A DNA stretch of 64,000 bases from positions 62,001-126,000 of the forward strand of contig JAFEMH010002448.1 in the NCBI GenBank assembly GCA_022495995.1, written 5' to 3'. Positions 3,170 to 61,209 of the stretch are shown piece by piece. Position numbers and translations under genes: made by a program. A model generated the notes under the pieces. That model was not told the DNA's origin. It saw only the letters and a program-made list of their open reading frames with translations, and did not search any database. How positions within the stretch are numbered: the first letter of the stretch is position 1; the number at the start of each line of letters is the position of its first letter. This stretch comes from Adenophora triphylla var. japonica (lineage: Eukaryota; Streptophyta; Magnoliopsida; Asterales; Campanulaceae).

Positions 3170-3183
3170 AGTCCGGCCGGACT
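3170..3183. promoter_or_regulatory. Palindrome AGTCCGGCCGGACT upstream of the D PMD gene
   Basis: Perfect 14-bp palindrome lying 150 bp before the PMD start codon on the minus strand (ATG at 3019). The same word stands in the D 3' LTR and in G at equivalent places. A role as transcription-factor site is inferred. Confidence 0.6.
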
Positions 3184-3321
3184 CTTTCTGCAGCAGAAAG
3201 ATTCCTTCCAATTTAGCCCCTCAACTATTCGCAGTTCCAATTTTACCCCTTTTGGCCCCCAAAAGTGTAAAATTTCCCCTAGTTAGACATTTCTAACAAC
3301 CCATCCCCCGCGGATCCATTT

Positions 3322-3945
3322 CCAGTTAGTTTTCACTAACGCCCGTCTCCAGACGTTAAATTCCCAGTTAGTTTTCACTAACGCCCGTCTTCAGACGTTA
3401 AATTCCCAGTTAGTATTCACTAACGCCCGTCTCCAGACGTTAAATTCCCAGTTAGTTTTCACTAACGCCCGTCTCCAGACGTTAAATTCCCAGTTAGTTT
3501 TCACTAACGCCCGTCTTCAGACGTTAAATTCCCAGTTAGTTTTCACTAACGCCCGTCTCCAGACGTTAAATTCCCAGTTAGTTTTCACTAACGCTCGTCT
3601 CAAGACGTTAAATTCCCAGTTATTTTTCACTAACGTTTATCTCCAGACGTTAAATTCCCATTTTCACTAACGCACGTCTCCAGACGTTAAATTCCCAGTT
3701 AGTTTTCACTAACGCCCGTCTCCAGACGTTAAATTCCCAGTTAGTTTTCACTAACGCCCGTCTCCAGACGTTAAATCCCCAGTTAGTTTTTCACTAACGC
3801 CCATCTCCAGACGTTAAATTCCCAGTTAGTTTTCACTAACGCCCGTCTCCAGAAGTTAAATTCCCAGTTAGTTTTCACTAACGCCTGTATCCAGACGTTA
3901 AATTCACAGTTAGTTTTTCACTAACGCCCGTCTCCAGATGTTAAA
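3322..3945. repeat. 42-bp minisatellite with two dyads per unit, about 15 copies
   Basis: Tandem 42-bp units, each holding GTTAGTTTTCACTAAC (a hairpin with TTTC loop) and CGTCTCCAGACG (a second short dyad). Copies are nearly uniform in the first half and diverge toward 3945. G has about six copies of the same unit in reverse complement at 57.56-57.83 kb. Confidence 0.9.
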
Positions 3946-4421
3946 TTCAATCCTCAGTTGACGTTTGACATTCAAACACTCAATCCCGTCTCCGGACATT
4001 CCAGTTACGACTCCGTCTCCCGACGTTAAAGTTTCTGGTGGTTTTCACCATCGTTCACTTCCCCGGCCGCCAGTCGTAAGCCCGATCGTCCCACCTCAGC
4101 GGCCATCAAGGTAAGCCCGCACTACAATCCCTATTCGGCCATCAAGGTAAGCCCGAACGTTCATCCCCAGCAGGATTCTAAAGAAGAAACGTCGATCCTT
4201 CCGAGTTGTTAATAACGCCAGTTTAACACAACCATTCCTATCATTGCCACCCTATCCCCAGCAGGATAAACCTGGCCGTCATCGTAAGTCCAGCACCCAA
4301 GGCACGAACGCCTTCGTCCCAGGATAAAGCAACTCCGGTTTGAGGCGCCACACGCCCTCGTATGATCAAGCAACTCCGGTCTGAGGCGCCACACTCCCTT
4401 GAAGGTTTCAGAAGTCCCAGG
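3946..4421. other. Spacer of element D between minisatellite and the A insertion
   Basis: No gene. It holds two copies of a roughly 41-bp motif with TTTGAGGCGCCACAC (about 4335-4395), matching the longer array in G at 56.8-57.06 kb. The stretch ends at CCAGG, the left target-site copy of element A. Confidence 0.6.
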
Positions 4422-4634
4422 TGTGATGATGTGTATCCGAAAATTTTCCCATTTTTATGTTTGAAAGAAAATCAACGAAAACGGAGTCGCCACGCCATTT
4501 TAATTTTGAAGGCCAAAACTTTGAAAAAAGCCCGAGGTCAGAGATTTAGGTTCGGAGGTCATGTTACGCGTCGGGAAGGACGTTAGTGTGCACCCGACGC
4601 ACCTCGTAAAACGAGTCTTCCAAGCTGAAAATCA

Positions 4635-4672
<38 letters not shown>

Positions 4673-6158
4673 GGCCAAAATAAGTTGAAACTCAGAAAAG
4701 TAAAAAATTGGGATATCTTTTAAGACTTTAAACTGATCCCATGATTTTTGGAAGATTTTTGGATTGAGATTTGGTACTCAAAAGACCTTTTGAAGTTGAG
4801 AGCCATTTCTGCCAGAATGAAAAAGGCAGTGGACCTTTGATTTTGAAAGGGATTCAAGGATCTTAAAACTTCATAATCTGGATAAACTCAGAGAATGAAA
4901 GTTGTTCTAGACACCTTAAATAAAGTTTGTGCGAAGGAATTTTCCATTTTGGAAAAGATTTGAGGGGTCAAAACCTTCTGGAAACCTCAGATATGAGATC
5001 TGGATTCCCAGAAGCTGATGAACTAGCCTCTGAAAGAAAATTTGAAAAGAGGAGTTTTACTCACCCAAAAAATAAGGTAAAAATATGTCTGGAAAGCTCT
5101 GGATGTTGGCTACAAAAAGTATTTTGTAGTCAACACCAAATTCCAAGTTCACCTGTGTCCAAAAATTAAGACCATGGACTGAGGTCTGAGAAAATTGCTA
5201 CTGGACAGCAACTTCTCAAGAAAGAAAATATGATTTTAAAGGGGGTTTTGCATCCATGCTTGTCCCCATTTCCCTAGGTTTTGGTTAGTGATCACTAGAC
5301 ATTTTAGTGGTGAATCAACTATACCAAACCATCCTTGGGGTACATTAGGACTAAGCATTTCATTTGCTTGGGAAGGGGATTTTTATCCTTTGAAAATGAG
5401 ATTTTATGCTTGAAAATGGTTTTTAGGGTTTTGAAAATGAATTTTCTTGGTAAGAAAGTAAGAAAACTTTGAAAATAATGTTGATCTTTGTAGAAGATCA
5501 TCCATGGAGATGGTCTTCCATGGTGATCTTCTTAGATCTAGAGCAAGAAGATGAAAGAACTACATTTTGTAGTTTGAAGATGCATGCATGGATGAGATTT
5601 AGGGTTAGGAAGAGGAGGGTTTACCAATCTTCCTTGTGTTCTTGAGTGTTTGGCTTGAGTGTATGAGTGTTTAGGGCTTTAATATGAGAGTGAGTGGATG
5701 AGTATGAGTTGGGAAAGATTGGAGAGAAAATGGTGACAATTCAAGTGAATTCTCACTGTTTTCTCTCTATATTTCGCCAGAGGTTCGGTGCAAAATGTGT
5801 TCTTCCTCCTTATTTTTGTGACTGGAGGGCTCAATTTATAGCCCTCCTGACTTTACAAAGTCATCCGCGCGGATTGGACTGCTTGGCGTGCACTGTTCAT
5901 TAAATGCAGCTCCAGCTTTGGACACAAGGAATAAAATTCAAAAATCTCAAAGAAAATGTTTTTCAACTTGTCAAGCTCGGGATTTTCTTAATTCTTTTGC
6001 TTTTTGAGATTCCTTGGAAGGTTTAACTCTAAATAGCAATGCCCATTTTACCCTTACTTTGTTAGAAAAGTTAGGATTGTTAGGAATGTTAGTAATTGTT
6101 ATGACTTTCGTTAATTTTCTAACGAAAATTCTAACAAGCTCAAATTGGAGCACTTACA
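4422..6158 (-). repeat. 3' LTR of element A
   Basis: 1737 bp, starting TGTGATGATG and ending CACTTACA on +. It differs from the right LTR at roughly twenty places by eye, several of them small indels including the (TG)n tract near 4640-4670. The LTR promoter is described separately. Confidence 0.95.
5824..5874 (-). promoter_or_regulatory. LTR promoter of A: TATA box inside a dyad, preceded by palindrome ATCCGCGCGGAT
   Basis: On minus, ATCCGCGCGGAT (5863-5874) stands 22 bp before TATAAAT (5834-5840). The TATA box is framed by inverted arms GGAGGGC and GCCCTCC (5841-5847 and 5824-5830). The same layout with the same 22-bp gap is in the other LTR (22440-22490). Promoter function is inferred from the TATA box and its place in the LTR. 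Confidence 0.65.
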
Positions 6159-6868
6159 GTAGCCCCTCGGCGACGGCGCTTTCGAAGGAAGCGGGGTCGT
6201 CGATAAGAGTAAGGCTCCATATTTGGCAAGTGTGATGATCGAGTGATCGGGTGGTGAACCTAGCGATAGGCTACCTACGTATCCCGAATGGGAATCAAGC
6301 CAGTCGTAGTTCGGGTCTTTGACCATGGAGATGATGGCGTTTTAGGTGCCTCGAACCTGATGAGCGAGTTCTACGATCGTTTCTTTGGAAAGAAACTCTG
6401 CTGAGGATAAGAGATGACCATTTTCGGTCGATGGCTATCCGCTCCGCTGGGGATAGGAGTGATCATTTTCGGTCTGATGGCTATCCGCTCTGCTGGGGAT
6501 TTTTGTGATTTATCGCTTTCCTAGTGATAGCGTCTTAGGTGCCTCAAACCTTGGAGATGGCGTTTTAGGTGCCTCGAACCTTGGAGATGGCGTTTTAGGT
6601 GCCTCGAACCTTGATAATGATGGCCTTTCGGTGGACTTCGTCTGCTGCCGAAGGAGAGGGTGACCGTTTTGGTCGAGGGGCTGGACCTAATGATAGGCTA
6701 CCTACGTATCCCTAGTGGGAATCAAGCCCTTTCGTAGTTAGAGTACTACTCGAGATTCCGTTGGCTTTTGGGATTCCGTTAACTTTGTTGGGGATTTCGT
6801 TAGCCTTTCTTTGGGAAAATCGACGTATTCGTCTGGGGAATTGGTCTTACGTTTGACTGCCGTTGGAT
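6159..6868. other. Purine tract (antisense view) and spacer of A with two CTACG hairpins
   Basis: Directly beside the LTR, + reads GTAGCCCCTC, the complement of a polypurine tract for plus-strand priming. Two hairpins follow (6275-6309 and 6702-6737) with outer stem CTACG/CGTAG and inner TCCC/GGGA. A roughly 30-bp repeat with TTTTAGGTGCCTCGAACC is present several times between 6330 and 6620. I see no gene. Confidence 0.6.
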
Positions 6869-7935
6869 GATTTTGATGGAAGATACGGGATCTCGTTATC
6901 TTTCTCGGGGCACTCGGTCTTACGTGACTGCCGGGGGTAATTTTGATGAAAGATACGGGATCTCGTTATCTTTCTCGGGGCACTCGGTCTTACGTTTCGA
7001 TCGCGGGGTAATTTTGATGAAAGATACGGGATCTCGTTATCTTTCTCGGGGCACTCGGTCTTACGTTTGGCTATCGGGGTAATTTTGATGAAGATACGGG
7101 ATCTCGTTATCTTTCTCGGGGCACTCGGTCTTACGCTTTGACCGCCGGGGGTAATTTTGATGAAAGATACGGGATCTCGTTATCTTTCTCGGGGCACTCG
7201 GTCTTACGTTTGACTGCTTAGGGTAATTTTGATGAAAGATACGGGATCTCGTTATCTTTCTCGGGGCACTCGGTCTTACGTTTGGCTTACGGGGGCAATT
7301 TTGATGAAAGATACGGGATCTCGTTATCTTTCTCGGGGCACTCTGGTCTTACGTTTGACCAGGGGTAATTTTGATGAAAGATACGGGATCTCGTTATCTT
7401 TCTCGGGGCACTCGGTCTTACGTTTGCCGTAGGGGCAATTTTGATGAAAGATACGGGATCTCGTTATCTTTCTCGGGGCACTCGGTCTTACGTTTACCGC
7501 CTGAGATGTAATTTTTGATGAAAGATACGGGATCTCGTTATCTTTCTCGGGGCACTCGGTCTTACGTTTGAGTCAGGGGTAATTTTGATGAAAGATACGG
7601 GATCTCGTTATCTTTCTCGGAGCACTCGGTCTTACGTTTGGCTTGCCGGGTAATTTTGATGAAAGATACGGGATCTCGTTATCTTTCTCGGGGCACTCGG
7701 TCTTACGTTTGACTGCCGGGGTAATTTTGATGAAAGATATACGGGATCTCGTTATCTTTCTCGGGCACTCGGTCTTACGCTTTTACGCCGGGGTAATTTT
7801 TGATGAAAGATACGGGATCTCGTTATCTTTCTCGGGGCACTCGGTCTTACGTTTGACCGCCGGGGTAATTTTGATGAAAGATACGGGATCTCGTTATCTT
7901 TCTCGGGGCACTCGGTCTTACGTTTGACCGCCTGG
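6869..7935. repeat. About 15 tandem units of roughly 71 bp in element A
   Basis: Each unit has a highly conserved core of about 55 bp (containing GATACGGGATCTCGTTATC and GGGCACTCGGTCTTACG) and a variable linker of about 12-18 bp. The core contains AAGATA...TATCTT as a small dyad. Position between 3' LTR and antisense gene is where Tat elements are known to carry minisatellites that can seed satellites. Open frames across it are repeat artefacts. Confidence 0.9.
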
Positions 7936-8057
7936 GGAAGATTTTCTTGACAAGGGGCCGACTTTGGTTAACTTTGGTTAACTTTGTCAAGTTCGGGACT
8001 CGAATTGCGTAGTCCCTGAATTTTAAGGGGCAAAAGGGTCATTTTGACCCTTGCAAT

Positions 8058-8075
8058 CCTATCCGCGCGGATAGG
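8058..8075. promoter_or_regulatory. Palindrome CCTATCCGCGCGGATAGG upstream of the A PMD gene
   Basis: Perfect 18-bp palindrome extending the LTR word ATCCGCGCGGAT (8061-8072). The 12-bp core ends 160 bp before the PMD start at 8233, and TATTAATT follows 18 bp after the core. A promoter site for the antisense gene is inferred from matching placement in D and G. Confidence 0.6.
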
Positions 8076-8232
8076 GTTTGAAAACCAGGGTATTAATTAG
8101 GGCCAACGCCCTTCCTCTTCCCCCATCAGTTTTTTTCAAAAATTCCGAGAGCAGGGAGAGAGAAATCGTAAATCCGCCATTGTTGGCCTTAGAAGCTTCA
8201 AAAATTCTCCGATTTCTTCGATTTTTTGAGCA

Positions 8233-10895: not shown

Positions 10896-11165
10896 TTTTT
10901 TTTTTGAGATTTGAGATTGAGATTTAGATTTGTACAACTTATGCACATTTTTTTTGGATGTAATAATTTAGGATTTTATTTATGTTTGCAATGCAATATG
11001 AATGCAGTGTTGCCTGAGCCTTGATTTTTTTTTTTTGCAAGGGTGTTTGGTATATGGACTGGTTTGAGGAGGTTTTTGCACAAGTTTCGAGCAACCGGGA
11101 CGGAATATTCCTCTTTTGGTGTAGCGGCTTGGGTACATTGCAAAGATTTTTTTTTTAGCAAATTC
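10896..11165. other. Spacer between the two antisense genes of A
   Basis: T-rich spacer with no ORF I can support. It would hold the 3' end of the PMD transcript and the upstream region of the DUF7745-type gene. Confidence 0.5.
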
Positions 11166-11177
11166 ATCCGCGCGGAT
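11166..11177. promoter_or_regulatory. Palindrome ATCCGCGCGGAT upstream of the A DUF7745-type gene
   Basis: Same 12-bp word as in the LTRs and before the PMD gene. It ends 125 bp before the ATG at 11303. TTTAATTT begins 23 bp downstream, and the equivalent site in G has TTTAAATT 21 bp downstream. Confidence 0.6.
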
Positions 11178-11302
11178 AGGACAGGAATCTGACACTGTCC
11201 TTTAATTTTGGTCCAGACCTGGTCTTGCTTTATTTTAAATTCAAATATCCTCTTCAACCTCCAGTCCAAACAGCCATTTTCGGGGAGAAAGAGAGAAAAA
11301 CC

Positions 11303-12796
11303 ATGGAAATGGCCAAAAATTCTCCAAAATTGTCCAAAGAAAGGCAAATGTTGTTCTTTGAAAAGTTCAAGGAGTGGTGTAGGGAGATTATGCACGGGAG
11401 AAGATCATTCTTTGAAGAAAGGTACAAGATACGATGCTTGTGGTCTCTCAAAGAATTGGTTCCGGATTATGACCTCTTAAGAGCTTCTTCTTCGTTTTGG
11501 GATACTAGAAGGCATGTCTTTTGCCTTTCCTTCAACGAGATTGTTCCGACTGTCGAAGAATTTCGGGCCTTGCTTGGAGGTCCGGAGGTGGAAGAGATAG
11601 CGGTTCCCTTGCCCGGAGGGGCTTCTTTTGCTGACAGATTGTGCGTCCTCCTTCATCTTTCCCCGGAGGAAGCGCAAGGTATGATCCGCGGTCCCGATCA
11701 TTTCGATATTTCCGGTCTTCCCGACAGATTTAGGGGCCTAGGTTTGGTAGATGATGCCTATTGGGATGCCTTTGCACTTTGCATGTTTGGCACCCTGTTC
11801 ATGGTCTATTCCTTTGGGATCTGTCATCGATCTCTGCTGGATGTTGTCGTTCACTGTCGCACAGGCGAGATGTCGTTCCTTTGATTCTTGGGGAGACTTT
11901 TCATGCTCTCGACGGATTAGCTACCGGACGGCGGTATATGCACGGGGGCGGCCCGTTCCTCTTGACCACATGGGCGATGGAGCGTTTGGGGTTCTTCGGG
12001 AAACCTACGATATGATCGAGCCTTGGACTTTTGCCGGAGAGGTGTTGATGTAGATTTTGATGATCGGGGCTCGTGGGAGCGTTGGATGGCGGGTCGCCGG
12101 CGAGAAGATATCAGATGGTCGGTGCCTCATTGGCGGGTGGAGACTCGCAGAGTGCTTCAGATGGGTCTCCCGTGGTCATGCTTCCGGGCTTTCTCGGTCC
12201 GGCTTCTATATTCCGGCTTTAGTTACGAGACAGTTCGGCTTGGAGCGAGGTTCCTTTGGAGGGCTTTGATGATGTAGCCACCAGGGTGGTGACTCCTGCT
12301 TCTATGGATGATCCCTCGGTGTTTCCATTTCTTTCCCGAGTATGGAGGTATGACGCCTTTCCTTCTCGGGTTATTCTCAGGCGTTCGAGACCGGTGTTCC
12401 TGACCACTTGGTACCTGGATTGGGATGAGAGGCATGCAGGAGAGACTCGGTGGCTATTTTGAGACGGCGTGAGGCCATTGTAGGTGCGGAGGACCGGGCA
12501 TTTCGAGAGGAGGAGGGCCGAGGCGGGCCAACCCTCATGGACCGGAGCGGGGACGCGTGGCCGACTATGAGGCTTACGTCAAGAGACAGGAGAGGAGGGC
12601 TCCTATGCTACCAGCTAGGCTACAGGAGATGAGGGATGACGCTAGGGCTACTAAGGCCCTGACAGAGGCTGGTTTGATAGACCCTGTTCCTATACCAGAG
12701 CTTGGTAGGAGGAGTACCGACATCTTTCCGGTTCAGAAGAGAAAGACTCGGAGGGGGAAGAAGAAGGGAGAGGCCAGTACGAGTGGCTTGGAGTGA
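11303..12796 (+). pseudogene. Antisense DUF7745-type gene of element A, frameshifted
   Basis: Homologue of the open 430-residue protein in G (61333-62625). The first 194 codons from ATG 11303 (a second in-frame ATG is at 11309) are open and align with G. Shared blocks include the LLRAxSxFWDxRR region, an ExxPTxEEF segment and FDISGLPDRF. A 1-nt loss near 11868 leads to TGA at 11882. Further indels follow, since matching peptide switches frame around 12000-12450. The last segment (12557-12796) is again in the starting frame and ends in a Lys/Arg-rich stretch followed by TSGLE. No intron is evident. The DUF7745 name is from memory of the family pattern; function is unknown. Confidence 0.65.
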
Positions 12797-13256
12797 CTCT
12801 GAGGTTTCCGAGTATCCCTTTCTTGTCATGGCAGACACATTAGTTAGATTATGTATCTTAGTTTTCCTTTAGCAGGTTGCTAGTTGTAGGAATGAATCGG
12901 GCTTAGACTCATCAAAGAGCTTTTAACTTGTAATGAATATTTGAATTGCTTTAGAGTTTTTCGAGACGCTTTCATGGTCTGATCAGTTGTATTGATGCCA
13001 AAGTATGGCTTTTATTTGTGCTTTAGACCGAACCGTTTCCATTTTGCCTACGTTCCCCTCATTTTGAGGAGCTCGGGTCTTCGTAGTTCAACTGGTGAAC
13101 TCTTTGTTTTTTGTTTTTTTTTTGTTTTTTTTTTTTTGTTTGTTTTTTTTTTTTGGTGCAACCCTGTTTTTTACCTAGGCTGCCCTTCTCGGGTTTCTAA
13201 CCTAGTTGGGTATTACTCTTTTAGCACTTTTTCTTCTTTCTTCTTTTTTTTTTGTT
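12797..13256. other. Spacer between DUF7745-type gene and pol end in A, with CTACG hairpin
   Basis: T-rich spacer where two convergent transcripts would end. It contains one hairpin (13048-13086), annotated separately, and no ORF. Confidence 0.5.
13048..13086 (+). other. Hairpin CTACG...CGTAG at the pol/antisense-gene boundary of A
   Basis: Outer stem CTACG (13048-13052) and CGTAG (13082-13086), with inner arms TTCCCCTCA and TGAGGAG. G has the same structure at the same place with different inner arms (63069-63115), and Athila has a relative at 28106-28163. Confidence 0.6.
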
Positions 13257-13990
13257 TTACGCGTAGTATCTGCGCAGCTTGTCACCATTCACTGGGTGTA
13301 CAAAGGGATTCCCGTCGAGGTCTGCAAGTTGCATGGCTCCTCCGGAGAAGATCTTCTGGACGACATACGGCCCGACCCATACGGGCTCCCATTTGCCGAG
13401 GGGTTGATACGGGTAGGGGCTTTTCTTTTAGAACGAGATCACCTTCTCGGATCTCCCGATGCTTTACTTTCTTGTCGAAGGCTCTAGCCATTCTTCCTTG
13501 GTAGGCTCGGATGTGTTCCATGGCCTTCGGTCGGCGTTCGTCTAGTAGGGCCGGTTCATCATGGCGACTCTGGAGCCATTCGACCTCGTTGATACGGCTT
13601 TCCAACGGTATACGGAGCGAGGGTATTTCCGGCTCGATTGGGAGTACGGCTTCCATTCCATATGTGAGGGCAAAAGGTGTTTCCCCGGTTGCCGTTCGGC
13701 GATGTTACGTAGCCCCGAGTGCCGGGTGTAACTTCTCGGGCCAATCTACGCCTTGGACTGACCATTTTCCGGATGATATTTTCCCGGAGTCTTGTTTCTT
13801 TGCTTCGACGGCTCCGTTGGTTTGGGGCCTGTAGGGAGATGACTTGTGACGGGTTATTCGGAATTACGCCGGCACTTTGTCACATTCCCCTTCGAAGTGG
13901 GATCCATTATACGAAATGATTTCGGCAGGCAACCCGTATCTGCACATGATGTTTTCTTTGATAAATAGGGCAACTTTCTTTGAATTGAGG
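13257..13990 (-). pseudogene. Integrase C-terminal half, element A
   Basis: The minus strand reads into a Ty3/gypsy integrase. An ENIMCRYGLPAEIIS-like segment near 13950 corresponds to the core region before the second catalytic Asp. It is followed by a block matching the G integrase (WLQSRHDEPALLDERRPKA) and the end KLRRYYA with TAA at 13257-13259. The frame is broken several times, so no active enzyme is possible. The N-terminal zinc-binding HHCC part and first catalytic Asp are not seen to the right of about 13990. Confidence 0.7.
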
Positions 13991-14980
13991 ATTTTGTAGG
14001 ACTTTGCAGAGCATCCTTTCCAATTCCTTCGAAGAAATGACCAATCTGCGTCTCTTTAGGCTCTTCCGCGGTTCCCAATTCACACTTGTCAAAATCTCTT
14101 CGGCGGCTTGGGCTCGATTTTCCTCTTTAGGACAACTGCTTTTTTTTTTGTTGTTTGATTTTTTTTTTTTTTGTTTAATGTGTACGCTTCTTTATCTAAT
14201 GAATTATTATTAAAATTTTTTATTAATTAATTCATCATTAGTTAAAGTGGCAATCAAGGGATACTCGAAAGGTTCGTCATTTCATTGAAAACGAAAGGGG
14301 ATACGGCGCTTGCTACGGACTCGTAGTCTTCGGGCGTAAGGCCGTCGGACGACCCTAGAGACTCGATCTTAACAAAGAGAGAGGCTGGGAGGACTTGTCC
14401 TAGATTGACACAAAGGGACGGGGGACCAATCCAAGCTTGGTGATCATTTCTTCCTTGGTCGCGGACGGGCACGAGAGGTTTTCCCAATTTCTTAGCGGCT
14501 TTCTTTGTTGGTGGCCTCATGACTCGGGAAGCTGTGTTGTTTTGTTTTCCTTTCTCAATTCTTTGCTATCATCTCTTGGACCGAGCCAAGATCAATCGGA
14601 GTCGGCACTGGACTTCTTCTTTGAACAATTGCTTTGCATAACGGACCATCCCAATCATCGAGGGAAATTCCGTGGCCTTAGCTTTTGGCACCGTCGGTTC
14701 GAACTCGGGTTTCGGATCTTCTGGGCGGTAGGAATAGTGGTTGTGAGCTTCTCGGCTTGTTCCACCGGGTCGAGCACGCCTCTGAAGGTATACTCGCTCT
14801 TCATGGTAGTGGTAGCCCCGGAGTATCTTGGGTAGGTCCGGGAACATTCTACGGACCGGGTTAGCCTTGGTTCCTCTAAACTTGTTGAGGCTATCCTGTA
14901 GTTTTAGCCATCCCCGCCGTAGGAGTGGGCTCTGTGATGTTTCTGGTTGTGTGGGACCCTTTACAAAGTAGTCGGCTAAA
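13991..14980 (-). pseudogene. Pre-RT linker and deletion scar of element A (RT/RNase H absent)
   Basis: About 1 kb separates the G-patch segment from integrase, too little for RT plus RNase H (normally about 1.8 kb), and I find no YxDD or FxDD box. The right part (14254-14850) codes in pieces for a charged linker. An A+T-rich stretch with two long T runs at 14140-14230 is the likely deletion scar. Confidence 0.55.
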
Positions 14981-15946
14981 TTAGGAGGAAGGGGAGAGAT
15001 TTAGGGTTGTCGGCCAGGGACCTTTCTGTGGCGGCTTCAAATCTTTTTCCCTTTGTAGTGTCACCGGGGAGGCCTCATATCCCGGGCCGTGGCGAGTATT
15101 CCGTCCTTTCACCTCGATGAGTTTGTGAGTTCCTTGTTGGTGCTTCCCAGGCCAGAGGCCACGTAGATAGCTCATTTTTCTCATCATTTTCAAGACAGGA
15201 GGGATTTTATCCCGAGTGACCGTCGGATCTATGTTGCACACTTGGGCCTTGGGAGGCTCGGCCGTGAAGCCCGTTAGCATGTGACCTTCCTCGTCATGTT
15301 TGATTTCCAGAATAGGTATTCCGCCCAGTATACGTGCCCTCTAAAGTGACTAAATCTCCGTAAATGGTCGTCGGATCCCCATTCGAGGCGAATTTCACAC
15401 CTTTGGTGGAGGCTTGAGGCGACCCCTTTGACTTGATGGAGCCAAGGTCTTCCCGGCGGGGCATTGAAAGTAATCGGGATGTCGATAACCTGGAATTCCA
15501 CAGTATCAATTTCGGTCCAAACCGAGAGGTCTAAAGTAGCAACTCAGGGGACTGCTCGGGATGTTGAGTCGTAAGCTTTGGCTGTGAGAGAAGAAGGCTT
15601 CAAGTACGTAGTCTTGATATCAAGCAAGCTCATGATCTTTGCGGAAGAATGTTCATTCCGGACCCATTGTCCACCGGGACCCGAGGGAGGCGTCGTTCAT
15701 CCAGTGGGCTGTGATGAAGAGAGGCTCATTATGATCGGCCCCAAATTGAGGGAGGTCGAGATCTGTGAAAGTGATTATGTTCCCGTAGTGGATGTTTCCA
15801 ATCAGTACCACATCATCGGGAGTAGCATCAATAGGCACGAGAGTGCGAGCCGAGGCTTTCTTCCGGCTTCGGCTTATGGGGATAAGGCGAAGTGAGTAGA
15901 GACCGAGGGAAATGTTGGCTGTGTTTGCTTCAATTTGGGTGAGCAC
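14981..15946 (-). pseudogene. Aspartic protease and G-patch region of element A pol
   Basis: Protease active site DNGSG is encoded at about 15657-15671, preceded by a block ending ...DLPQFGADHNEPLF and followed by FQVIDIPITFN and GRPWLHQ, as in Tat proteases. Then comes a G-patch-like segment (about 15065-15195; RKMSYLRGLWPGKHQQG and GPGYE). A G-patch after protease is a known trait of Tat/Ogre pol. The frame is interrupted several times. Confidence 0.65.
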
Positions 15947-35307: not shown

Positions 35308-35312
35308 CCCAC

Positions 35313-38807: not shown

Positions 38808-38846
38808 AGTATGTGTAATATCCATCATCTTCCAACACAAAACAAA

Positions 38847-42796: not shown

Positions 42797-42814
42797 TCCC
42801 CAGCGGAGTCGCCA
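42797..42814 (-). other. Primer-binding site of element C
   Basis: On minus TGGCGACTCCGCTGGGGA, identical in type to that of A, one base from the LTR. Confidence 0.8.
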
Positions 42815-43785: not shown

Positions 43786-43829
43786 AAACGAATCCAAAGG
43801 AACTGTGGGACTTTTTTAAGGCGTTTATA

Positions 43830-45784: not shown

Positions 45785-46241
45785 GTCTCCCACTTGCACT
45801 AGGCTCCATTTATGTATCGAATACTCATGGATTTAACATGACCATCATGCTTCTGCCTATGCGAGGGTTTTTGTTAGTGAATCCCTTATGTCATCATCGG
45901 TTAATATTTTGTATATCTTAACGTCTTCTCATTCTTTATGAATTCCTCGAAGAACGTCTAAGTGAGTGTTTGGATCACTGTTGTGACCTTGGTTCCATTG
46001 TTTGCACAAGTGGCACCACTATTGTCATAACAAAAGTTTCGCCGATTAGTGATACTTGGAAAAACATTTGGAGTGTTTCCAAAATACTAAATGAACTTTT
46101 GATCCAAACTGCCTCTTTCAGCTTCATCATATGTTGCTAAAATATGGCCTTAGTAGTAGAATCGGCTACAATTTCTGCTTGGAACTCTTCCAATCAAAAT
46201 TGCACCTCTAATAAACACAAACACAAATCCTAATTGCGATT

Positions 46242-49194: not shown

Positions 49195-50778
49195 TTCCTT
49201 TATGCGGTGTGCTAGAACAAAAGAATAGTTATCATGTGCTCAAGGTTCTTCATAAGAGCCTTTAAACATGGTGGCAAATACAAGGCAAGCAATATTGTCA
49301 GAATCATCACTATGTTTCTAATGTTGCTTCCTTATTTGCCCTTTGCAACATTTGCAATGGGTTCAGTAGGAACGGATTCGTCAAGAACGTACACATTATG
49401 TATTGTTCCTTTCGAACTTTGTCCTTCATAAGGACGAATCGCAATTATCATTATGTAATGCTATTTCTACAACAAAATATACAAATTATATGAATACATA
49501 TCAATATCAACACATTTATCATTTAAGAGCAAATAATGTATTTTACAAATACTCCCACTAAATCATACACCTTCCAATGCAAATAAGCATAATATGCATT
49601 TAATGGGCTAAGATCCAACTTTAATTTAATCTCAAGTACGTTATGGCGCACCGCTCAAGATTAAACTAATTAGGTAGAAAACATCAATCATATCGTGTAT
49701 GACTCTTAGGATCTTTTATGAGATTTATTTAAGACATCATATGTCCAAGCATATTTTAATCTCATCTTATGCCTTGGGTCCAAAACCATTTCGATAACCC
49801 AATTAAGTTCATCCATTTTAAACGTATAGGAACCACCATTTACTCATCTTGCTCGCATTCGAATAGAATCAAAGCACCTTGCTATGGCAAGCCTACCCAA
49901 AACTATCCGAATGGTCTCAAGTATTTAATCATGAATTGGCATAAAGAACTTAAAAGTTAAATGAAGGTTCTTTAAAGGTAGATTATAAGCATATCAGAAA
50001 GATAGTCAAAATCATGCACCAGGTAAGTTCCCAGGAAGATAGGTGAGCCACAAGGACTTCTTAAGTACCAACTCTTCCTTAGACAGAACTCTCCTAGACA
50101 TGCATAATTAGAAATCAACTCTGATTAGGCAACATAATCCCTACCTTTTTCTAAACAATCAGTTTCCTTTTAAATTTCGCGTATTTATGACTTGTTTCCA
50201 TAAACAATCATGTTTCAACTAAACATCTAATTAAAAATTCTTAGCATGTAAGAACAAATAAAACATGCAACGTAATAATTATTAAAATCACATTTTAATC
50301 AATTAATCATGCATATCAATGAATCAATCTAGCATGGTCTTATAAACTCAATTTATAACATCCAGATTTTCATATGAACATATCAGATTGTAAACACAAT
50401 CACAAAATAGCAGAAAAATTTGAACAAACTGATTCTGCCCAGTTTTGGCTTATTATGTCGCGTGACAACATCAGGCCCGAGGCTTGATATGTCGCGCGAC
50501 CTAATAGCCGATAACTGAAATTCCACATGGCTCATCATGTCGCGCGACCTAAGCAAAAGACACAGGATTTTCAGATTCGAACCAATTCAGATCGCAACCA
50601 ATTAAATCACATAAAACAACCTTTTACAGATTTAATTCAGCATAATTCGAAAACGATTTTCACATTGTTTCACATAAACAATTAAAAAATTCTATCGCAT
50701 ACAAAACATGCAATAAGCATATAAACAATTTATATCTTAAATCTAGCATGTTAATTCAAACTTAATCATACGAACGGG
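49195..50778 (-). other. copia gag 5' part and leader, with palindromes
   Basis: No open gag remains. Three copies of the family palindrome (TATGTCGCGTGAC at about 50456, TATGTCGCGCGACC at about 50493, CATGTCGCGCGACC at about 50538) stand in the leader near the primer-binding site. Confidence 0.5.
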
Positions 50779-50790
50779 GCTCTGATACCA
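50779..50790 (-). other. Primer-binding site of the copia element
   Basis: On minus TGGTATCAGAGC, complementary to the 3' end of initiator tRNA-Met, one base from the LTR. Confidence 0.95.
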
Positions 50791-50791: not shown

Positions 50792-52144
50792 TGTTGGGTT
50801 TTACGGGTCCATGCGCAATGAATTAAGCATTAAAAACATAAAACCCAAGAAGCCCTAGGATCCGTTCTATACAATTAATTTAAATTCCTATGAGATAGAA
50901 TTATACCAACCTTGAATGCTTTCCGTTCTTGAGCTATCGAACGATTTGATTGTGTGATATTGAATCACAAACTTCGTTCTTCAACTTGCTTGAACTCTAG
51001 GCCTTGATCAATGAACGAGCGAAGACCCTCTTTCGGTATCCACACCTTTGAATGAATTCAAGAACAACTTCTTGATGATTGCTAGATCTAAACCTTGAAG
51101 AATATTGAGAGTATTTGATTGTGAATTTTGCTTGAAAATTTCGGCTAGAGAATTAGGTCTGACAGACCTCCCATATTTATACTACAATAGTATGAATACG
51201 TCTCCTAATCGTATTAGGAGAACAGTCATCAAACCGCGTATGGGCTTGATATGTCGCGCGGTATATTAAGCCAATGGCTTAGTATGTCGCGTGACATATG
51301 TAGCCGATACTGTAGACTCTCAATCATTCTTCCTCCGGTTTAACCAATTCATTCTAGTTGTGTGTGACCCAATAGGATTACATTATGTTGGCAATGAGTT
51401 TGATCATATCGAACCTCATAAGACATAAGCGGACTCTAGCAAGCCATTATGTCTACCCAAATAATGTAACGTAAGAGTTCACGTTTCCAATGGTGTACTT
51501 CCATTTCTCCCTTTGTCTCACGATGTTATATTGAACACAAGTCATGGTCCTTGTCAACTTGTCTTTGTTCAATGCTTTCTCGATTCTTTGAGTATAATGA
51601 TAATTCCAATCATATTGGGGTACAGCCATACACTTTCATCATTATCACTCATCGAGGGGCCCAAGCAAAACATCTCTCTTTCGAGGGACAAATTCCATCT
51701 TGATTTATCATCCTTCCCATCATGAATCCGATCATGCCAAAGATAGCCTTTATAGATATCATGTTAAGATATCGTTTGACTAAAATCAAACATGACTTTT
51801 CATCATATGTAAGGTCATGATAATCTCAGGTCTAGGAACTAAATGAAGTAACCTTATGAGATTTACTTATGACATTTGACCATGACATAAATCTCATACG
51901 GGTCAAGTCCAGTCACTTGTTCTCTAACAAGTACCCATAATTTCAATGTGCATCTCTATGCATATAATCATCATATGATTATCCATTGACAATTATACTA
52001 ATTATTCTCTTAATAATTAGGGACGGAGATTATTACAATAAATATGCAAACTATATAATAATCAAATAATAAACATAAACGATAAAGATGATACATAACG
52101 GTTTTCAGTTAAACATAACTAAAGCCTAGGGCATTACACCAACA
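50792..52144 (-). repeat. 5' LTR of the copia element
   Basis: 1353 bp. TATA box complement at 51174-51181; palindromes near 51249 and at 51283-51298. Confidence 0.95.
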
Positions 52145-52149
52145 GAGAT

Positions 52150-53558: not shown

Positions 53559-55535
53559 TGTAAGTACCCAAATCCGGATTGCCAAAATCCGTTAGAAGTT
53601 AACCGGAATCCGTTAACTGGCCCGCTCCAGGTTAACCGGAACCCGTTAAGCTCCCCGTTCCCCAGCCAACGAGATGTCCCGAGACTGCCACGAGCATCCC
53701 GACGTCAAAGTGTACTCAACACACGTCATCGCACGTAAAAGTACGACTTTCCCTGAAAAACGCACTTTCCGGCACTTTCCGGGGGCGTTTCAGACATTTT
53801 CTGGACTGTTATTTTAAAAAAACGGACAAAACCGGTAAATAATGGCACAAACTCCCATGGCCTGTGAGTCACAGGGACACGTGGCTCACATGCCACAGCT
53901 CCCCCATCACCTCTCAATCAAATTTAGAGTGAAAAGACAAAAATACCCCTGGTATACAGTCTCAGTCCAGCCGGACTCATTTGCAGACAATCCAGGAATT
54001 GCCATCAAGTCCCTCCAATATCCAAATTTCACAAAACCCCCCTGATTTCACCCTCAGTCCGTCCGGACTCATGCTGAAATTTTACCTATAAATACAGTGG
54101 CTGTCAAAGCCATTAATAACAACAAAAAATTACTCCCTTTCACCAAAACCCACGGCCTAAACTGGTTTCACCCCTTCCCGAGCCCCGGTTTTACCTCGTT
54201 TTGCATGAAAACTCCATATTTCAATCAAATACGACCCCCGCCACCTCGAAAAACCGTTCCAAACACACTTTCGTATCCCGTATACGTCCCCCGAGCCAAA
54301 GGAGCCGACCCTAGCCATAGGTAGCTCCCTCTCTCTTTAAAACTCTCGTTCCGTCTCAGTTTACGCGCTAGTCGCTACTACCGTTTCGAACGACATTGTT
54401 GAAATGTAGACGCCTCCATCTAACTGGGTCCGATACGTTTTAATCCGCGATCCTCTTCTCTTCCCGTAAGAGAAGTAATCTCGGGTTAAAATGGCATTCC
54501 GGCCCCATTTCGTTTACTTTTATGTCATTTACCAATTCCGGATCGTTTGATCCGTCGATCGTCATTTAAATTCCTGTCATTTACAAATTCCGGATTGTTT
54601 GATCCGTCGAACGTCCTTTACTTTCATGCAACTTTACAATTTCGAGCCGTTTGGCTCGTCGATCGTACTTTACAATTTCAGATCGTTTGATTCTGTTGAT
54701 ACCGCACTTTAAATACTGTCATTTACAAAGTTCGACCCATTTGGATCGTGATAGTATTTACTTTTCAAAGTCCGAGTCGCAACCCGATTCGTTGATCGCA
54801 TGTCATTTAATGCCTTTTTCCCGTAAAAATGCTAACAATGTAATGCCCGGTTCAAAACCGGAGTTCGACCTTCGAACTCTCTTTCAAAATGCGCGAAATG
54901 ACGTTTGGCATCCAAACGCTCATCTTCAAACTTAAAAGCCCCCTTTTGACATTCAAAATCAATTAATACGTTTTTCCCGTAAAATCGTTAACAATGACAC
55001 GCCCGGTTCAAAATCGGAGTTCGACCTTCGAACTCTCTTTCAAAACGCGCGAAATGACGTTTGGCATCCAAATGCTCATCTTCAAACTCAAAATCCGACG
55101 TTTGACATTCAAACGCTCTTTTCTTAAAAGTCAACATTTGACACTTAAGTTAAGCGGTCAAAATCAGCCCTCGTGCCACTTTTTCCTAAAACTTCCAAAA
55201 CCGACGTTTATCATTCAAACGCTCGCCTTTTCAAACAGAACCATAATCAACATTTGACATTCAAACCAAGATTAAGCTTGTCATTCAAGCCCCCATTTCA
55301 AAATGCAAACACACACACACACACGCACACAATTTCGAGAAAGGTAGAAAGACTCGTCATACGAGGCATTTCGGGTGATCTCAATTTACTCTTCCCGAAA
55401 CGTAACGTGACCTCCGAACCTAACAATCTCTGGTACTAAAAAAGCTTTTTACTCATTTTTGCTACCAATAAAAATGTCCCCCTGTTTTAAAAGCCTTTTC
55501 CTATGTTTTTGCTACCAATAAAAATGACACAATTT
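53559..55535 (+). repeat. LTR E, Tat D/G family, plus orientation, truncated at its 3' end
   Basis: Starts TGTAAGTACCC like D. On + it has AGTCCAGCCGGACT (53964-53977, one mismatch), AGTCCGTCCGGACT (54056-54069) and TATAAATA (54087-54094), 17 bp after the second palindrome. Sequence before 53559 is not a purine tract, so this may be a 5' LTR or a solo LTR. It stops abruptly where LTR F begins in inverse orientation. Confidence 0.8.
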
Positions 55536-56492
55536 TAAACGGAACGGGGTCGGAACGCCGTTTTAACCCGAGATTACTTCTCTTATGGGAATAGAAGAGG
55601 ATCTAGGGGCTAAAACGTATCGGACCCCGTTAGACGGAGGCGTCTAGATTTCAATAACGTTGTTCGAAACGGTTGTAGTGACTGGCGCGTAAATCGAGAC
55701 GAAATGAGAGATTAGAGAGAGGGAGTTATACCTACGGCTAGGGTCGACTCCTTTGGCTCGGGGGTGTATACGGGATACAGAAAGTGGTTTGGGACGATGA
55801 TTCGGAGTGGTGAGGGGCGTATTTGATCGAAATACGGAAGTTTCACGCGAATCGAGACGAAATGGGAGCTCGGGAAGGGGTGAAACTCAGTTGGGCCGTG
55901 GCTATGGTGAAAATGGAGAGTAATTTTGTTGTGTTTTCTGGCTTTGACAGCCCTTCTATTTATAGGTGAATTTTCAGTATGAGTCCGGCCGGACTTATCA
56001 TGAAATCCAGGGGGTTTTGTGGTATTTTGGAATTTTGAGGGACTTGTTGGCAATTTCTCAGAACCTGGAAATGAGTCCGGCCGGACTTGGTCTGCAATCC
56101 AGGGGTATTTTGGTCATTTGGCCTTGATTTCTGATTGAAAGGTGACTAGATGGAGGTGGCATGCTTGCCACGTGTCGCATGACTCACCATTTATGTGGGA
56201 GTTCGTTCCCGGGTCCCGATTTTGTCCATTTTTTAAAATAACAGTCCGGAAAATGTTCAAAACGCCCCTGGAAAGTGCCGGAAAGTGCGCTTTTCAGGGA
56301 AATCCGTACTTTTACGTGCGATGACGTGTGTTAAGTACGCTTCGACGTTGGGATGCTCGGGACAGTCCCGGGACGTCTCGTTGGCTTGGCAACGGGGAGC
56401 TTAACGGGTTCCGGTTAACCTGGAGCGGGCCAGTTAACGGATTTCGGTTAACTTTCTAACGGATTTTGACGATCCGAATTTGGGTACTTACA
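55536..56492 (-). repeat. LTR F, 3' LTR of element G, only its first half (U3)
   Basis: Ends ...TTACA at 56492 next to G's purine tract. On minus it has AGTCCGGCCGGACT at 56074-56087 and 55982-55995, then TATAAATA (55957-55964) 17 bp further. The rest of the LTR is missing at the junction with E (TTTTAAAC). Confidence 0.8.
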
Positions 56493-56657: not shown

Positions 56658-56799
56658 TTCGTAGGTGCAAGGAGCCGCGCGTGGGGACCTTGACCTGAGC
56701 GAGACTATTGGGAGGCGTCTAAACCTGAATGAGACCATTGCGAGGTACCCGAACCTGAATGGAGACTATTGTGAGGCATCTGGACCTGGGATTCCTGAA

Positions 56800-57555: not shown

Positions 57556-57830
57556 GGATTTAACGTCTGGAGACAGACGCGAGCGTTTGAATGTCAAACG
57601 TCGACTGGGAATTTAACGTCTGGAGACGAGCGTTAGTGAAAACTAACTGGGAATTCAACGTCTGGAGACGAGCGTTAGTGAAAACTAACTGGGAATTTAA
57701 CGTCTGGAGACGAGCGTTAGTGAAAACTAACTGGGAATTTAACGTCTAGAGACGAGCGTTAGTGAAAAGTAACTGGGAATTTAACGTCTGGAGACGAGCG
57801 TTAGTGAAAACTAACTGGGAATTGATCCTC
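57556..57830. repeat. 42-bp minisatellite of G, about six copies
   Basis: Complement of the D unit at 3322-3945, with the same two dyads (CGTCTGGAGACG and GTTAGTGAAAACTAAC). Confidence 0.85.
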
Positions 57831-57958
57831 GGGGGATGGGGTGTTAGAAATGTCTAACTGGGGGAAATTTTACACTTTTTGGGGGCAAAAAGGGGTAAAA
57901 TTGGAACTGCCAAAAGTTGAGGGGCTGAATTGGAAGGAATCTTTTAAATTGCAGCAAG

Positions 57959-57972
57959 AGTCCGGCCGGACT
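57959..57972. promoter_or_regulatory. Palindrome AGTCCGGCCGGACT upstream of the G PMD gene
   Basis: Perfect; ends 152 bp before the PMD ATG at 58125 (150 bp in D). Confidence 0.6.
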
Positions 57973-58124
57973 TGGACTGAGTTTGACTAGATTCAAAATC
58001 AGCTCCAAGTTCGACGCAAACCCATTCCTTTTCCGCCATTAATTCCGACGAGAGAGGAGAGAAAGGAGAGAAAATTTTCACACCAAATTGCGAGATTTGC
58101 TCAGATTTGTGAAGATAAATTGCT

Positions 58125-60790
58125 ATGGAAGGTGATTTGGAAACAATGGCTCGCCATGGAAGGACCGATGACGAAAGAACCCGATTGGTTCGGACCATTC
58201 GAACTACAACCTTTCCATTGAATCCGGGGGAGTTCTACCCGGGTAGGGAGAACCACAAATCCAAAGGAGGGATCGAGAGACAGGTAAACTTCCTTCAAAT
58301 TCCATTAATTTAAAAATGTGCATTCTTTAAATGTTAGAAATTTGACTAGGAATGAGTTAGGGATTTTGGTGCGCGAATTGGGGCTTTTGACTTTGCTATG
58401 CGCCTTTGTCGAAATTGACTAGGATGTAGTTCAATTGACACCATGGGTAGATGACATAAAAATTTGGTTGCAAAATTCCATGTCTAGATGTGTTTTCCGA
58501 ATTTAAAGTATGTTTAAATCGGGACAGAATAATTTTTCGAAATGTTCGAAAGGATTCGAAAGTTTCGGATTCGACGGATTTTTCGAAGGATTTTGAAAGT
58601 TTCGGATTCGACGTAGTGTTCGAAATGCTTTGAAAGTTCCGGATTCGAAGGAGTTTTCGAAATGCTTTGAAAGTTTCGGATTCGACAGAGTTTTCGAAAT
58701 GCTTTGAAAGTTCCGGATTCGACGGAGTTTTCGAAGGGATGGAAATATATTTAGGAAATGAATGAGAACCGTATCTGCATTACATCCTTTTGACATGCGT
58801 TCGTGCACTTTGTTGATGTCGCTTTTGTGCTTAACGTATCCTTGCTTTGTTCACCTGCAGGGGCGAGGGATAGTTGACGTCCACAATCAGAAGAGTCGGG
58901 GAGCCTTTGAGGCAGTGCGAGCGCTGTGGGAGGTAATCCCGGACGAGGCTCCTGAGGGAGAGAGGAGTCCACGGCAGCTGGTGGTTGACTCTGGATTAGC
59001 TGGGTTTATCAGTGCGGTAGCTGCGATAGCTGCGACGCAGAGGGCCAGGTCCATGTATGTAGCTCTGAGCGAGTACTGGTGGGATACGACCCACACTTTT
59101 CATTTCAGATGGGGGGAGGCGACGGTGACTCCCACTGACTTTGCTGCTATCACCGGGTTGCCGACCTATGGCAACACGCTGGTGTGGGTGGATGGTTATA
59201 CCCCGGGGCAGTTGTCGGAGCTACTGGGTTTTGATATTACTGATGTCAGGGGCTTAGGCATTCGGTACATGTCGATGGAGAGGCATCAGCAGATGGTTAT
59301 TGAAGATTATTTGGCTGGATCTTTGAGGATGACCGCGGAGCGCCTGGCTCGAGGGTTCATTTGGTTCGCGTTGTCAGCGACTTTGTTCCCGACTTTTGAC
59401 ACATCCTGTCACTTCCCTCTGTTCGGGTCGCTAACAGACTTGGATGCCGTGAGGGGGCATGCATGGGGGGAGGCTGGACTGGCCGAGCTCTACCATTCCC
59501 TGGACAGGTTCTCGCAGGGAGAGAAGAACTCCCTGAGCTGTTTCTCGCTTGCTCTTGATGTAAGTTCACGTCTTTTTCTCTTCCTTGTCTCTTTTATGTA
59601 CTCGTATGTATCTGCTTTGTAGCTGACATAACTTTCCATTTGCTTGACAGGTCTGGTGCTATGAGGTGTTCAGTCCACAACAGTGGGACATTAGGGAGGC
59701 GTATCGACCCCTGTTCCCTGCCATGCTGGTTTGGTAGAAGAGGGCGAAGAACCCGGTCTCGTCGAGAGTGGGTACTCGACTGACATATGAGGAGTTCTCC
59801 CAAGCACTGAACCGGGAGTTCTCTGAGAGGATCCAGCTGACCTGGTGGAGTCGGTTCCACGCTGTCGCGGTTCAGGTTGCTAGTGAGGTTACGCGGCTGC
59901 GGAAGCTCCTGGTGGGACTTCATTGCGACGCTATGTATATGGGGGAGAGGGTGACCCATCAGCATGGCCCGGGGTCCCTTCCGATGGTGCCGGTGGATCC
60001 ACCTCTGCACATGCAGCATCCTCTGTCGATGCCGATGGAGGAGCTGGAGAGGTATAGACAGGGCGTGTTCTATACCGAGTACATCATAGCGGGGGCCGAC
60101 TATGAGACTTTCATAAGGATGAGGCTGAGGAGCCCACAGGTGCAGCACAGGGAGGGCGAGGGCCCTGGATATCCTCGAGATCTCCCGCTCCCACACGCTA
60201 GGCTGGCGTACGAGGGGCTGGATGGTTCACGCAGGCGACTTGTGATCCCGATCCTGGAGGAGCCGAGATCTCGGTATAGGGTGGACCCCAACACTTCGGC
60301 GAGTGCTTTTGATTTTCTGTATTTGACAGTAGCATTCTGCAAATGTTGCATCTGTACTTTCTGCTCGTCTTTTGATGACTTTCCTGGTTCGCAGGTGTCT
60401 GGCCGTACGTACAACGAGGCTATGAGACTGGTGGACGGGTGGGCCGCCTACACTAGGAGGCTCGTGGAGTTCCTGAGATGCAGTTCCCGGAGGAGCGTGG
60501 ATGTCCGTGAGCCGAGGCCGTCTAGGCCGAGAGGTTCGTCTGCTCCCACGGCTGGTGGAGCGGACTTTGCACAGGGATTTGGCCAGTTCGCGGGCGGAAC
60601 GGCTGGGTTTGGAGCTCATCCTCCTTCGCACTCGGGGCACGAGAGGGGAGAGTCCTCGAGTTCACAGGCGCAGAGGAGGCCTTTCGCGTATTCTCGCATG
60701 GAGGAATTCGGCGACTTCTTGTTTGCGACGGATCCGGCAGCTGCGGAGCAGTGCGTCGAGTGCTCGGATAACGAGCAGGACTCGGAGTAG
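58125..60790 (+). pseudogene. Antisense PMD gene of element G, four exons, one premature stop
   Basis: Exons 58125-58283, 58861-59559, 59651-60298 and 60395-60790 code for 53, 233, 216 and 131 residues (633 in all). All introns are phase 0. Acceptors are CTGCAG, TGACAG and TTCGCAG; donors are GTAAAC, GTAAGT and GCGAGT. The last is a GC donor where D has GTGAGC, so intron 3 is GC-AG or weakened. Exon 2 contains the PMD motif FHFRWGEATVTPTDFAAITG and the helical block RMTAERLARGFIWFALSA. The C-terminal exon is rich in Ser, Arg and Gly and ends acidic. The one coding lesion is TAG at 59735-59737 where D has CAG. It is antisense to pol; the known role of such genes in retroelements is open. Confidence 0.8.
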
Positions 60791-61195
60791 TCCTTCTTTA
60801 TTTTATTTTTTTAGACAAAATGTATGTATCGTCTGGAACGATTTGATTTGAACTGTATTTGAAAAAAGGCGCCCTTGGGGCGGAACCTGTACTTCGCGCA
60901 TCTATTTAGTGATTACCTTCTTTTTATTTTGGCAAATAAGCAAGTAGGTTGATCAAAAAATAAATAAAATGAAATATGCATAAAAAATTGAACTGGTAAA
61001 AAATTATGCCTATATGCACTGATATTTTAATTATTTGCACTGTTGCACGAGCCCGGGGCGGAAGAGGTATTGACATTGGTTAAATGAAACCAGGGGCAGC
61101 ACGCAGATTCATAAGGTATGAACAGGGCGTTATTTGGAATTGCTTCCAATTTAGGAGCAGCTGGCTGCAGAGTTGACCAGGTCAACTGCAAGGGG
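60791..61195. other. Spacer between the two antisense genes of G
   Basis: Matches 1-210 of D in complement for its left part. It contains GTTGACCAGGTCAAC (61173-61187), an extra palindrome just before the family palindrome. Confidence 0.5.
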
Positions 61196-61209
61196 AGTCC
61201 GGCCGGACT
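61196..61209. promoter_or_regulatory. Palindrome AGTCCGGCCGGACT upstream of the G DUF7745-type gene
   Basis: Perfect; ends 123 bp before ATG 61333 (125 bp in A). TTTAAATT follows 21 bp downstream as a possible TATA element. Confidence 0.6.

Follow-up and report, generated by a model that had tools for sequence, protein, structure and literature searches.

Short palindromes recur at LTR promoters and before accessory genes of nested plant retrotransposons

The stretch analyzed here (hereafter the window) comprises 64 kb of plant DNA from Adenophora triphylla var. japonica (contig JAFEMH010002448.1, positions 62,001–126,000) and, by self-comparison, holds many nested long terminal repeat (LTR) retrotransposons. 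Short palindromes recur within these elements, in the LTRs upstream of TATA-like words and, in three families, upstream of extra genes. A preliminary description of the same sequence had assigned one such palindrome to each of five families and proposed an element-encoded operator system. All site evidence presented below comes from this one window, and two related families, termed A and D, bear most of its weight.

Nested elements and their palindromic sites

Element types were assigned from Pfam matches, primer-binding site (PBS) words and reading of open reading frames (ORFs), and borders from self-comparison. The elements are as follows.

4422–6162 and 21043–22781, minus strand: LTRs of A, a Tat-type Gypsy element of ~18 kb
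23141–24556 and 33892–35307, minus strand: LTRs of the Athila element, 99.86% identical by self-comparison
44425–45785 and 50792–52145, minus strand: LTRs of the copia element
Left copy, lone LTR at 53621–55536 and right copy from 55519 onward: D, a second Tat-type family, present as pieces
Minus strand: C, a 5′ LTR and leader

The left D copy occupies 1–4414; its 3′ end is apparently split by A and Athila, resuming at 22782–23140 and 35308–37224. From the five families of the preliminary description we retain A, Athila, copia and C, and treat its D, E, F and G as a single family, whose LTR pieces at 35308–37224 (E), 53621–55536 (F) and 55519–56429 (G) align at ~82–87%. An 18-base PBS word, TGGCGACTCCGCTGGGGA, which we take to be Tat-type, is common to A (21024) and C (42797–42814). 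C is placed in Gypsy and the copia element in Copia; an RNase H motif presumably marks the latter as a non-Sirevirus.

The A word, ATCCGCGCGGAT, occurs exactly at 5863, 8061, 11166 and 22479 only, all inside A. The D word, AGTCCGGCCGGACT, occurs exactly at 3170, 35649, 55982, 56074, 57959 and 61196, all inside D pieces, and with one mismatch at 35741, 53964 and 54056, all in LTRs. With exact A words confined to A and exact D words to D, the claim that a word is reused within an element and differs between families is borne out. The two words differ yet have a TCCG-NN-CGGA core in common, and a motif kept in step within the element and distinct between related families is what A and D display (n = 2 related families). 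Outside the window, the D word was found in 30 stretches on 30 different viral contigs, one place each, which gives a rough background. The A and D sites are listed here with their neighboring words.

22479–22490, minus strand: palindrome ATCCGCGCGGAT in the 5′ LTR of A; GCAG at 22495–22498, TATAAAT at 22450–22456
5863–5874, minus strand: palindrome in the 3′ LTR of A, a copy of the 5′ LTR site; TATAAAT at 5834–5840
8061–8072, plus strand: palindrome 5′ of the PMD-type gene of A (ATG 8233); GCAA at 8053–8056, TATTAAT at 8091–8097
11166–11177, plus strand: palindrome 5′ of the DUF7745-like gene of A (ATG 11303); GCAA at 11158–11161, TTTAATT at 11201–11207
3170–3183, minus strand: palindrome AGTCCGGCCGGACT 5′ of the PMD gene of the left D copy (ATG 3019); GCAG at 3188–3191, TATA-like word absent at 10–30 nucleotides (nt)
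57959–57972, plus strand: palindrome 5′ of the PMD gene of the right D copy (ATG 58125); GCAG at 57951–57954, only a poor TATA-like TCAAAAT
61196–61209, plus strand: palindrome 5′ of the DUF7745-like gene of D (ATG 61333); GCAA at 61188–61191, TTTAAAT at 61231–61237
35649–35754, plus strand: D LTR, E piece; site 1 at 35649–35662 with GCAG, site 2 at 35741–35754 (1 mismatch), then 17 nt and TATAATT at 35772
53964–54069, plus strand: D LTR, F piece; sites at 53964–53977 and 54056–54069, each with 1 mismatch, the latter followed after 17 nt by TATAAAT at 54087
55982–56087, minus strand: D LTR, G piece; sites at 56074–56087 (GCAG) and 55982–55995, the latter 17 nt before TATAAAT at 55958–55964

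Ten LTRs are visible (two each in A, Athila and copia, three in D and one in C), and every one has a site. Downstream of it, a TATA-like word was measured in eight, at 17–149 nt: the gap is 17–22 nt in the A and D LTRs, 34 nt in the Athila 5′ LTR, 68 nt in the copia 5′ LTR and 149 nt in C. The copia 3′ LTR has the same arrangement by position and the Athila 3′ LTR by its near identity to the 5′ copy, which agrees with the earlier statement that every visible LTR has its site upstream of a TATA box.

Sites in the other three families are less regular. The word quoted for Athila is an imperfect palindrome, with 2 mismatches to its own reverse complement, and has exact copies at 24082 and 34833. 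The 16-mer quoted for copia has no exact occurrence in the window, the best match having one mismatch; the 14-mer quoted for C likewise has none, with three sites at one mismatch. Overall, the LTR and leader sites of copia and C depart from the quoted words by one or two mismatches.

24082–24241, minus strand: Athila 3′ LTR cluster of 4 near-copies; the same in the 5′ LTR at 34833–34992
27655–27987, minus strand: Athila internal array of 9 near-copies, ~510–840 nt upstream of the first ATG of the extra ORF
26376–27148, minus strand: Athila extra ORF in two pieces, first ATG at 27145; PF20167 (Transposase_32; cut-off 45 bits) at 33 bits in one piece and 54.3 bits in the other
51250–51298, minus strand: copia 5′ LTR sites at 51250 (2 mismatches) and 51283 (1 mismatch); TATAAAT at 51175–51181
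44885 and 44918: copia 3′ LTR sites; TATAAAT at 44809
50454–50551, minus strand: copia leader sites at 50456, 50488 and 50536, past the PBS word at 50779–50790
43562–43575, minus strand: C LTR site, 149 nt before TATAAAT at 43406–43412
42677–42709, minus strand: C leader sites at 42677 and 42696, ~106 and ~87 nt past the PBS word at 42797–42814

The Athila array of nine near-copies lies, as had been described, upstream of the extra ORF, which encodes a Transposase_32 (PF20167) protein. Copia and C sites have TCGCGCGA in common, although the two elements are assigned to Copia and Gypsy, respectively. A separate word, ATACTAAGCC, found beside the palindrome in the C (43562–43575) and copia (51283–51298) LTRs on the minus strand, was not significant in masked alignment and was set aside.

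Recurrence was compared with chance after masking repeat copies and tandem arrays (49,304 bases left), by counting near-palindromic 12-mers with at least 3 occurrences at no more than 1 mismatch. Three GC-rich clusters emerged (Athila 8, D 4, A 3), compared with none in 60 shuffles. The total was six clusters, including three AT-rich ones, and shuffles averaged 1.45 of any kind with a maximum of 5. The copia and C words fell below the recurrence threshold of this masked scan. Perfect palindromes with a CGNNCG centre number 11 in the window against a mean of 0.5 and a maximum of 3 in 200 shuffles. Because these 11 palindromes are only three distinct words, the signal is one of recurrence rather than variety, and we dropped an excess of distinct CGNNCG words as a claim, three being unremarkable against the shuffles (mean 0.5 sites, maximum 3).

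These counts divide the preliminary description. Enrichment over shuffled sequence is seen for A, D and Athila but not for copia and C. The constant CG-NN-CG centre is true of the words at hand, but few independent words stand behind it, three at strict settings. One palindrome per family, at both LTR and internal sites, is supported for A, D and Athila, most strongly for A and D; in copia and C the quoted words are never exact and the internal sites lie in the leader.

Accessory genes and the composite promoter of A and D

Two antisense genes lie 3′ of the internal A and D sites. The first, a PMD gene, starts at ATG 8233 in A and at 58125 and 3019 in D; the second, a DUF7745-like gene, starts at 11303 in A and at 61333 in D. 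With gene starts taken as ATGs read by eye, a palindrome precedes 5/5 visible starts, as the preliminary description had it for each Tat antisense gene. From palindrome start to ATG, the distance is 172 nt in A and 166 and 164 nt in D for the PMD gene, and 137 nt in both families for the DUF7745-like gene. That these distances are alike although the word differs counts in favor of a promoter role. The D accessory proteins were identified as follows.

58762–59622, plus strand: PMD accessory protein piece of D; PF10536, E 7.8e-22
61333–62625, plus strand: DUF7745-like protein of D; 20.8 bits, below the Pfam cut-off of 26, E 2.3e-4

PF10536 scores above its curated cut-off of 34.9 in both D copies (78.3 bits in the right, 42.9 bits in the left) and gave no match in the two A gene pieces tried; the A gene at 8233 is called PMD-type because of its position and a reading of its putative product against those of D. 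The DUF7745 profile stays below cut-off in both families, and the A piece at 11303–11881 is 49% identical to the D protein over the aligned part. Protein searches returned one relative for the DUF7745-like protein and eight for PMD; for an Athila pol piece none was confirmed among viral contigs, where records near the window's own genome were possibly excluded. Antisense accessory genes with suspected regulatory roles have been reported (Vicient 2025, PMC11963269; review, PMC7264820), and PMD is present in 57% of Ogre elements (Neumann 2019, PMC6317226).

A feature absent from the preliminary description is that the A and D palindrome sits within a composite: a GCAR box (TTGCAR-like), 4 nt, the palindrome, 17–23 nt and a TATA-like box. 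GCAR was first spotted by eye and then evaluated with a statistic maximized across every word and offset of the 40-base flanks, with the seven-site set and the 12- or 14-base palindrome edges being the analyst's choice. In promoter orientation, GCAR stands exactly 4 bases before the palindrome in 6/7 non-homologous A and D sites, the exception being D LTR site 2. TTGCAG at −10 within 2 mismatches occurs at 7/7 sites, a result reached in 0/1000 random sets (0–2/1000 for other word settings). At 4–5 nt, GCAR accompanies 9/10 exact A and D sites in promoter orientation and 1/10 in the opposite orientation; these counts include LTR pairs and D copies, which are not independent. Among the other 26 of the window's 36 perfect palindromes, it accompanies 1/52 orientations. 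When one bad pair is allowed, GCAR appears in 16/882 orientations, 11 of which are A or D sites.

The TATA-like word follows the palindrome by 17–23 nt at the A LTR, at both A genes, at the D DUF7745-like gene and at D LTR site 2. Scored at 15–25 nt, six chosen A and D promoters sum to 33 of 42, a value reached in 0/5000 local shifts. The D LTRs each carry two palindromes, whose starts are exactly 92 bases apart in 3/3 LTR pieces; the GCAR flank is present at the first palindrome in 2/3 pieces (E and G) and at the second in 0/3.

Origin of the sites and their putative binder

Whether the internal sites arose by copying a longer segment was examined by masking the palindrome and comparing the alignment of each site pair with 3000 random pairs. 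In A, 2517, 1394 and 1394 random pairs aligned as well as the three site pairs, so that no flank likeness beyond chance is seen; the four D LTR–internal pairs (897–1826 of 3000) and the single C LTR–leader pair (365 of 3000) are likewise at chance level. A and D thus have the same word in otherwise unrelated LTR and gene promoters. Athila and copia behave differently. Athila pairs share flanks (5, 68 and 7 of 3000, the LTR–array pairs being 5 and 68), and its LTR and array are also 74% alike over ~122 bp by self-comparison; the four copia LTR–leader pairs share flanks as well (6–7 of 3000). Because of these shared flanks, the LTR and internal sites of Athila and copia are not independent: there, a larger module was duplicated. 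Of the twelve A–D pairs, one scored high (A LTR against the D DUF7745-like promoter, 12 of 3000). A functionless origin, in which internal sites are left over from duplication, template switching or LTR–internal gene conversion, would account for the flank sharing in Athila and copia. It sits poorly with the lack of flank homology in 3/3 A, 4/4 D LTR–internal and 1/1 C pairs, and with A and D words of 12–14 bases that remain identical or one mismatch apart, at promoters; we regard it as improbable.

An action at the RNA level, through sense and antisense transcript hairpins that template small RNAs or aid dimerization, strikes us as a shade less probable still. Palindromic motif clusters in maize Sireviruses do attract small RNAs (PMC10760457, PMC5311732), and 3/8 regions fold better than shuffles (A PMD, z −4.1; D PMD, −3.6; A LTR, −2.55). 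The other five are near chance (A DUF7745-like, −0.64; D DUF7745-like, −0.01; D LTR, −1.53; Athila LTR, −1.38; Athila array, −0.76), and the sites keep to the promoter, whichever element strand it lies on. The symmetry of the sites, their set place before TATA-like boxes on the promoter's strand and their reuse at the visible promoters instead suggest a dimer site that would coordinate LTR and accessory promoters. Each palindrome would be a promoter-proximal putative site for a dimeric DNA-binding factor; with the same site in the LTR promoter and before accessory transcription units, one factor could turn on genomic RNA and accessory genes together, and CpG methylation in the site may tune its binding. 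In both Tat families, the site would form part of a stereotyped GCAR–palindrome–TATA composite promoter. A promoter element in this sense, whether read by a host or an element protein, is in our view very probable.

As to the binder, one or more host factors appear more likely than a protein of the element: sites of this kind are also present in copia, where no accessory gene was seen, a weak negative that covers ORFs of at least 80 amino acids in a decayed element. A promoter element read by host factors is the version we lean towards, by a little over even chances; a literature search for a host factor family gave no lead. The alternative, developed from the operator suggestion of the preliminary description, is that each family's palindrome is bound by one of its own accessory proteins (PMD or DUF7745-like for Tat, Transposase_32 for Athila), which would co-evolve with the site and either activate the element or relieve its silencing, in the manner of VANC in VANDAL. 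The word indeed differs between A and D, yet within each family it is shared by the LTR and the promoters of both genes, as it would be were all sites read by one element-specific factor. Short motifs that vary from one related element to the next are the targets of VANC proteins (PMC5735166), and DNA binding is predicted for TRP28, a further domain of Tat antisense proteins (PMC11963269). At MORC1 in Arabidopsis, a promoter motif given as CATGCAGTTT has been linked to PMD proteins and has TGCAG in common with the GCAR flank (PMC9899485), a likeness of five bases only that may serve as a lead, not a test.

As a general rule, an element-encoded binder is less easily reconciled with the copia sites, with the TCCG-NN-CGGA core found in both A and D words, or with the sharing of TCGCGCGA by copia and C across Copia and Gypsy. 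Structural support was also lacking: of the 38 PDB matches at E ≤ 10 to the PMD model (predicted local distance difference test, pLDDT, 63.8), none reached E ≤ 0.001, and the DUF7745 model was discarded (pLDDT 33.8), although poor models and absent matches say little about the binder either way. We consider an element-encoded operator possible but rather unlikely. Its fullest form is marginally more doubtful: PMD, DUF7745 or Transposase_32 proteins of Tat and Athila would be site-specific, methylation-sensitive activators or anti-silencers that read the family's CpG palindrome (in Tat, beside the constant GCAR at nearly every promoter), an independently arisen counterpart of VANC. What endures of the operator proposal is that family-specific palindromes are common to LTR and accessory promoters and set near TATA-like words, with unrelated flanks in A and D.

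Several observations weigh against the promoter-element interpretation and its composite form. The evidence comes from one window. The composite belongs to 2/5 families; Athila, copia and C, which stood outside the GCAR and TATA tests, have no GCAR 4–5 nt upstream and no good TATA word at 10–30 nt, and D LTR site 1 stood outside the TATA test. Within D, LTR site 2 is without GCAR, the left PMD promoter is without a TATA-like word and the right one has a poor one. Sites that are neither A nor D make up 5/16 of the GCAR-bearing near-palindrome orientations and 2/8 of those that also have a TATA-like word. The D PMD and DUF7745-like promoters share some flank (12 of 3000), and duplication alone could explain the internal sites of Athila and copia.

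Other features of the window were recorded. ORFs of A at 11900–18400 (minus strand) include gag, protease-like and integrase-like pieces by eye, with no clear reverse transcriptase seen in this reading, made without a profile search; A may be non-autonomous. Tandem arrays lie in or beside the accessory-gene regions, with units of 37 and 42 bases in D (2285–2586 and 58545–58740; 3318–3948 and 57604–57823) and 70 bases in A (6843–7945). Tandem repeats of 30 bases, alike by eye, lie near the C and D LTRs (43805–44350, 56693–56788 and 22780–22874). An Rfam snoR71 match (RF00097; 33142–33248, plus strand; 48.2 bits against a cut-off of 40) is antisense within the Athila gag ORF. A short ORF at 38805–39350 (plus strand) presumably resembles a host gene for a PR-1/CAP-type secreted protein.

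Comparison with known systems

The closest precedent is found in the Sirevirus RM boxes, which the preliminary description, in comparing its sites with VANC, did not name. RM boxes are element-specific, CpG-rich palindromic repeats with a CGG-CCG signature, placed ahead of the TATA box in the LTR and again 5′ of env; their describers could not name a binder (Bousios 2010, PMC2829016). As here, the palindromes precede the LTR TATA box, are repeated 5′ of an extra gene, have divergent flanks and were proposed to be regulatory (PMC2829016), and the present case is a variant of that arrangement in Tat and Athila. Further copies 5′ of an extra gene occur in A, D and Athila; in copia and C they lie in the leader instead. 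The CGG-CCG signature is present in D (CGGCCG) and in an Athila LTR variant, GCGGCCGC, at 24156 and 34907, and absent from A, C and copia. The spacing differs, with 6–8 bases between the two CpGs in 12 CGG-CCG motifs (counted from the printed table of PMC2829016) and two bases here. RM boxes belong to Copia elements, whereas the present hosts are mostly Gypsy Tat and Athila: the Athila gag is Gypsy-type (PF03732), and the accessory genes of A and D, PMD-type and DUF7745-like, run antisense. The antisense orientation of the Tat accessory genes, and the composite that in A and D combines the palindrome with GCAR and a fixed distance to the TATA-like word, are further differences.

VANDALs are DNA transposons. 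Their VANC system resembles the present one in its short non-coding motifs that differ between related elements, but the VANC21 motif, YAGTATTAY, is non-palindromic and its binder is known (PMC5735166). Gene23 of Grande is likewise an antisense gene between pol and the 3′ LTR with its own promoter, although the available text does not mention a palindrome common to the LTR (PMC7264820). The Arabidopsis PMD proteins MAIN and MAIL1 are tied, through the DOWN motif, to a short promoter sequence with TGCAG as in the GCAR flank; there, the genes are those of the host, the motif is not a CpG palindrome and direct binding is not shown (PMC7156037, PMC9899485). Within the open-access literature, the titles and abstract beginnings among the matches listed describe no such palindromes in Tat or Athila, which is not proof of absence.

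Each element thus resembles a tiny co-regulated gene network, with a family-specific word at its main promoter and before its extra genes. For the function of the Tat antisense accessory genes, the common site offers a direct test: whether their products bind their own word. The RM pattern of Sireviruses is extended to a second superfamily, and the composite grammar of A and D adds a pattern for which any plant genome could be searched.

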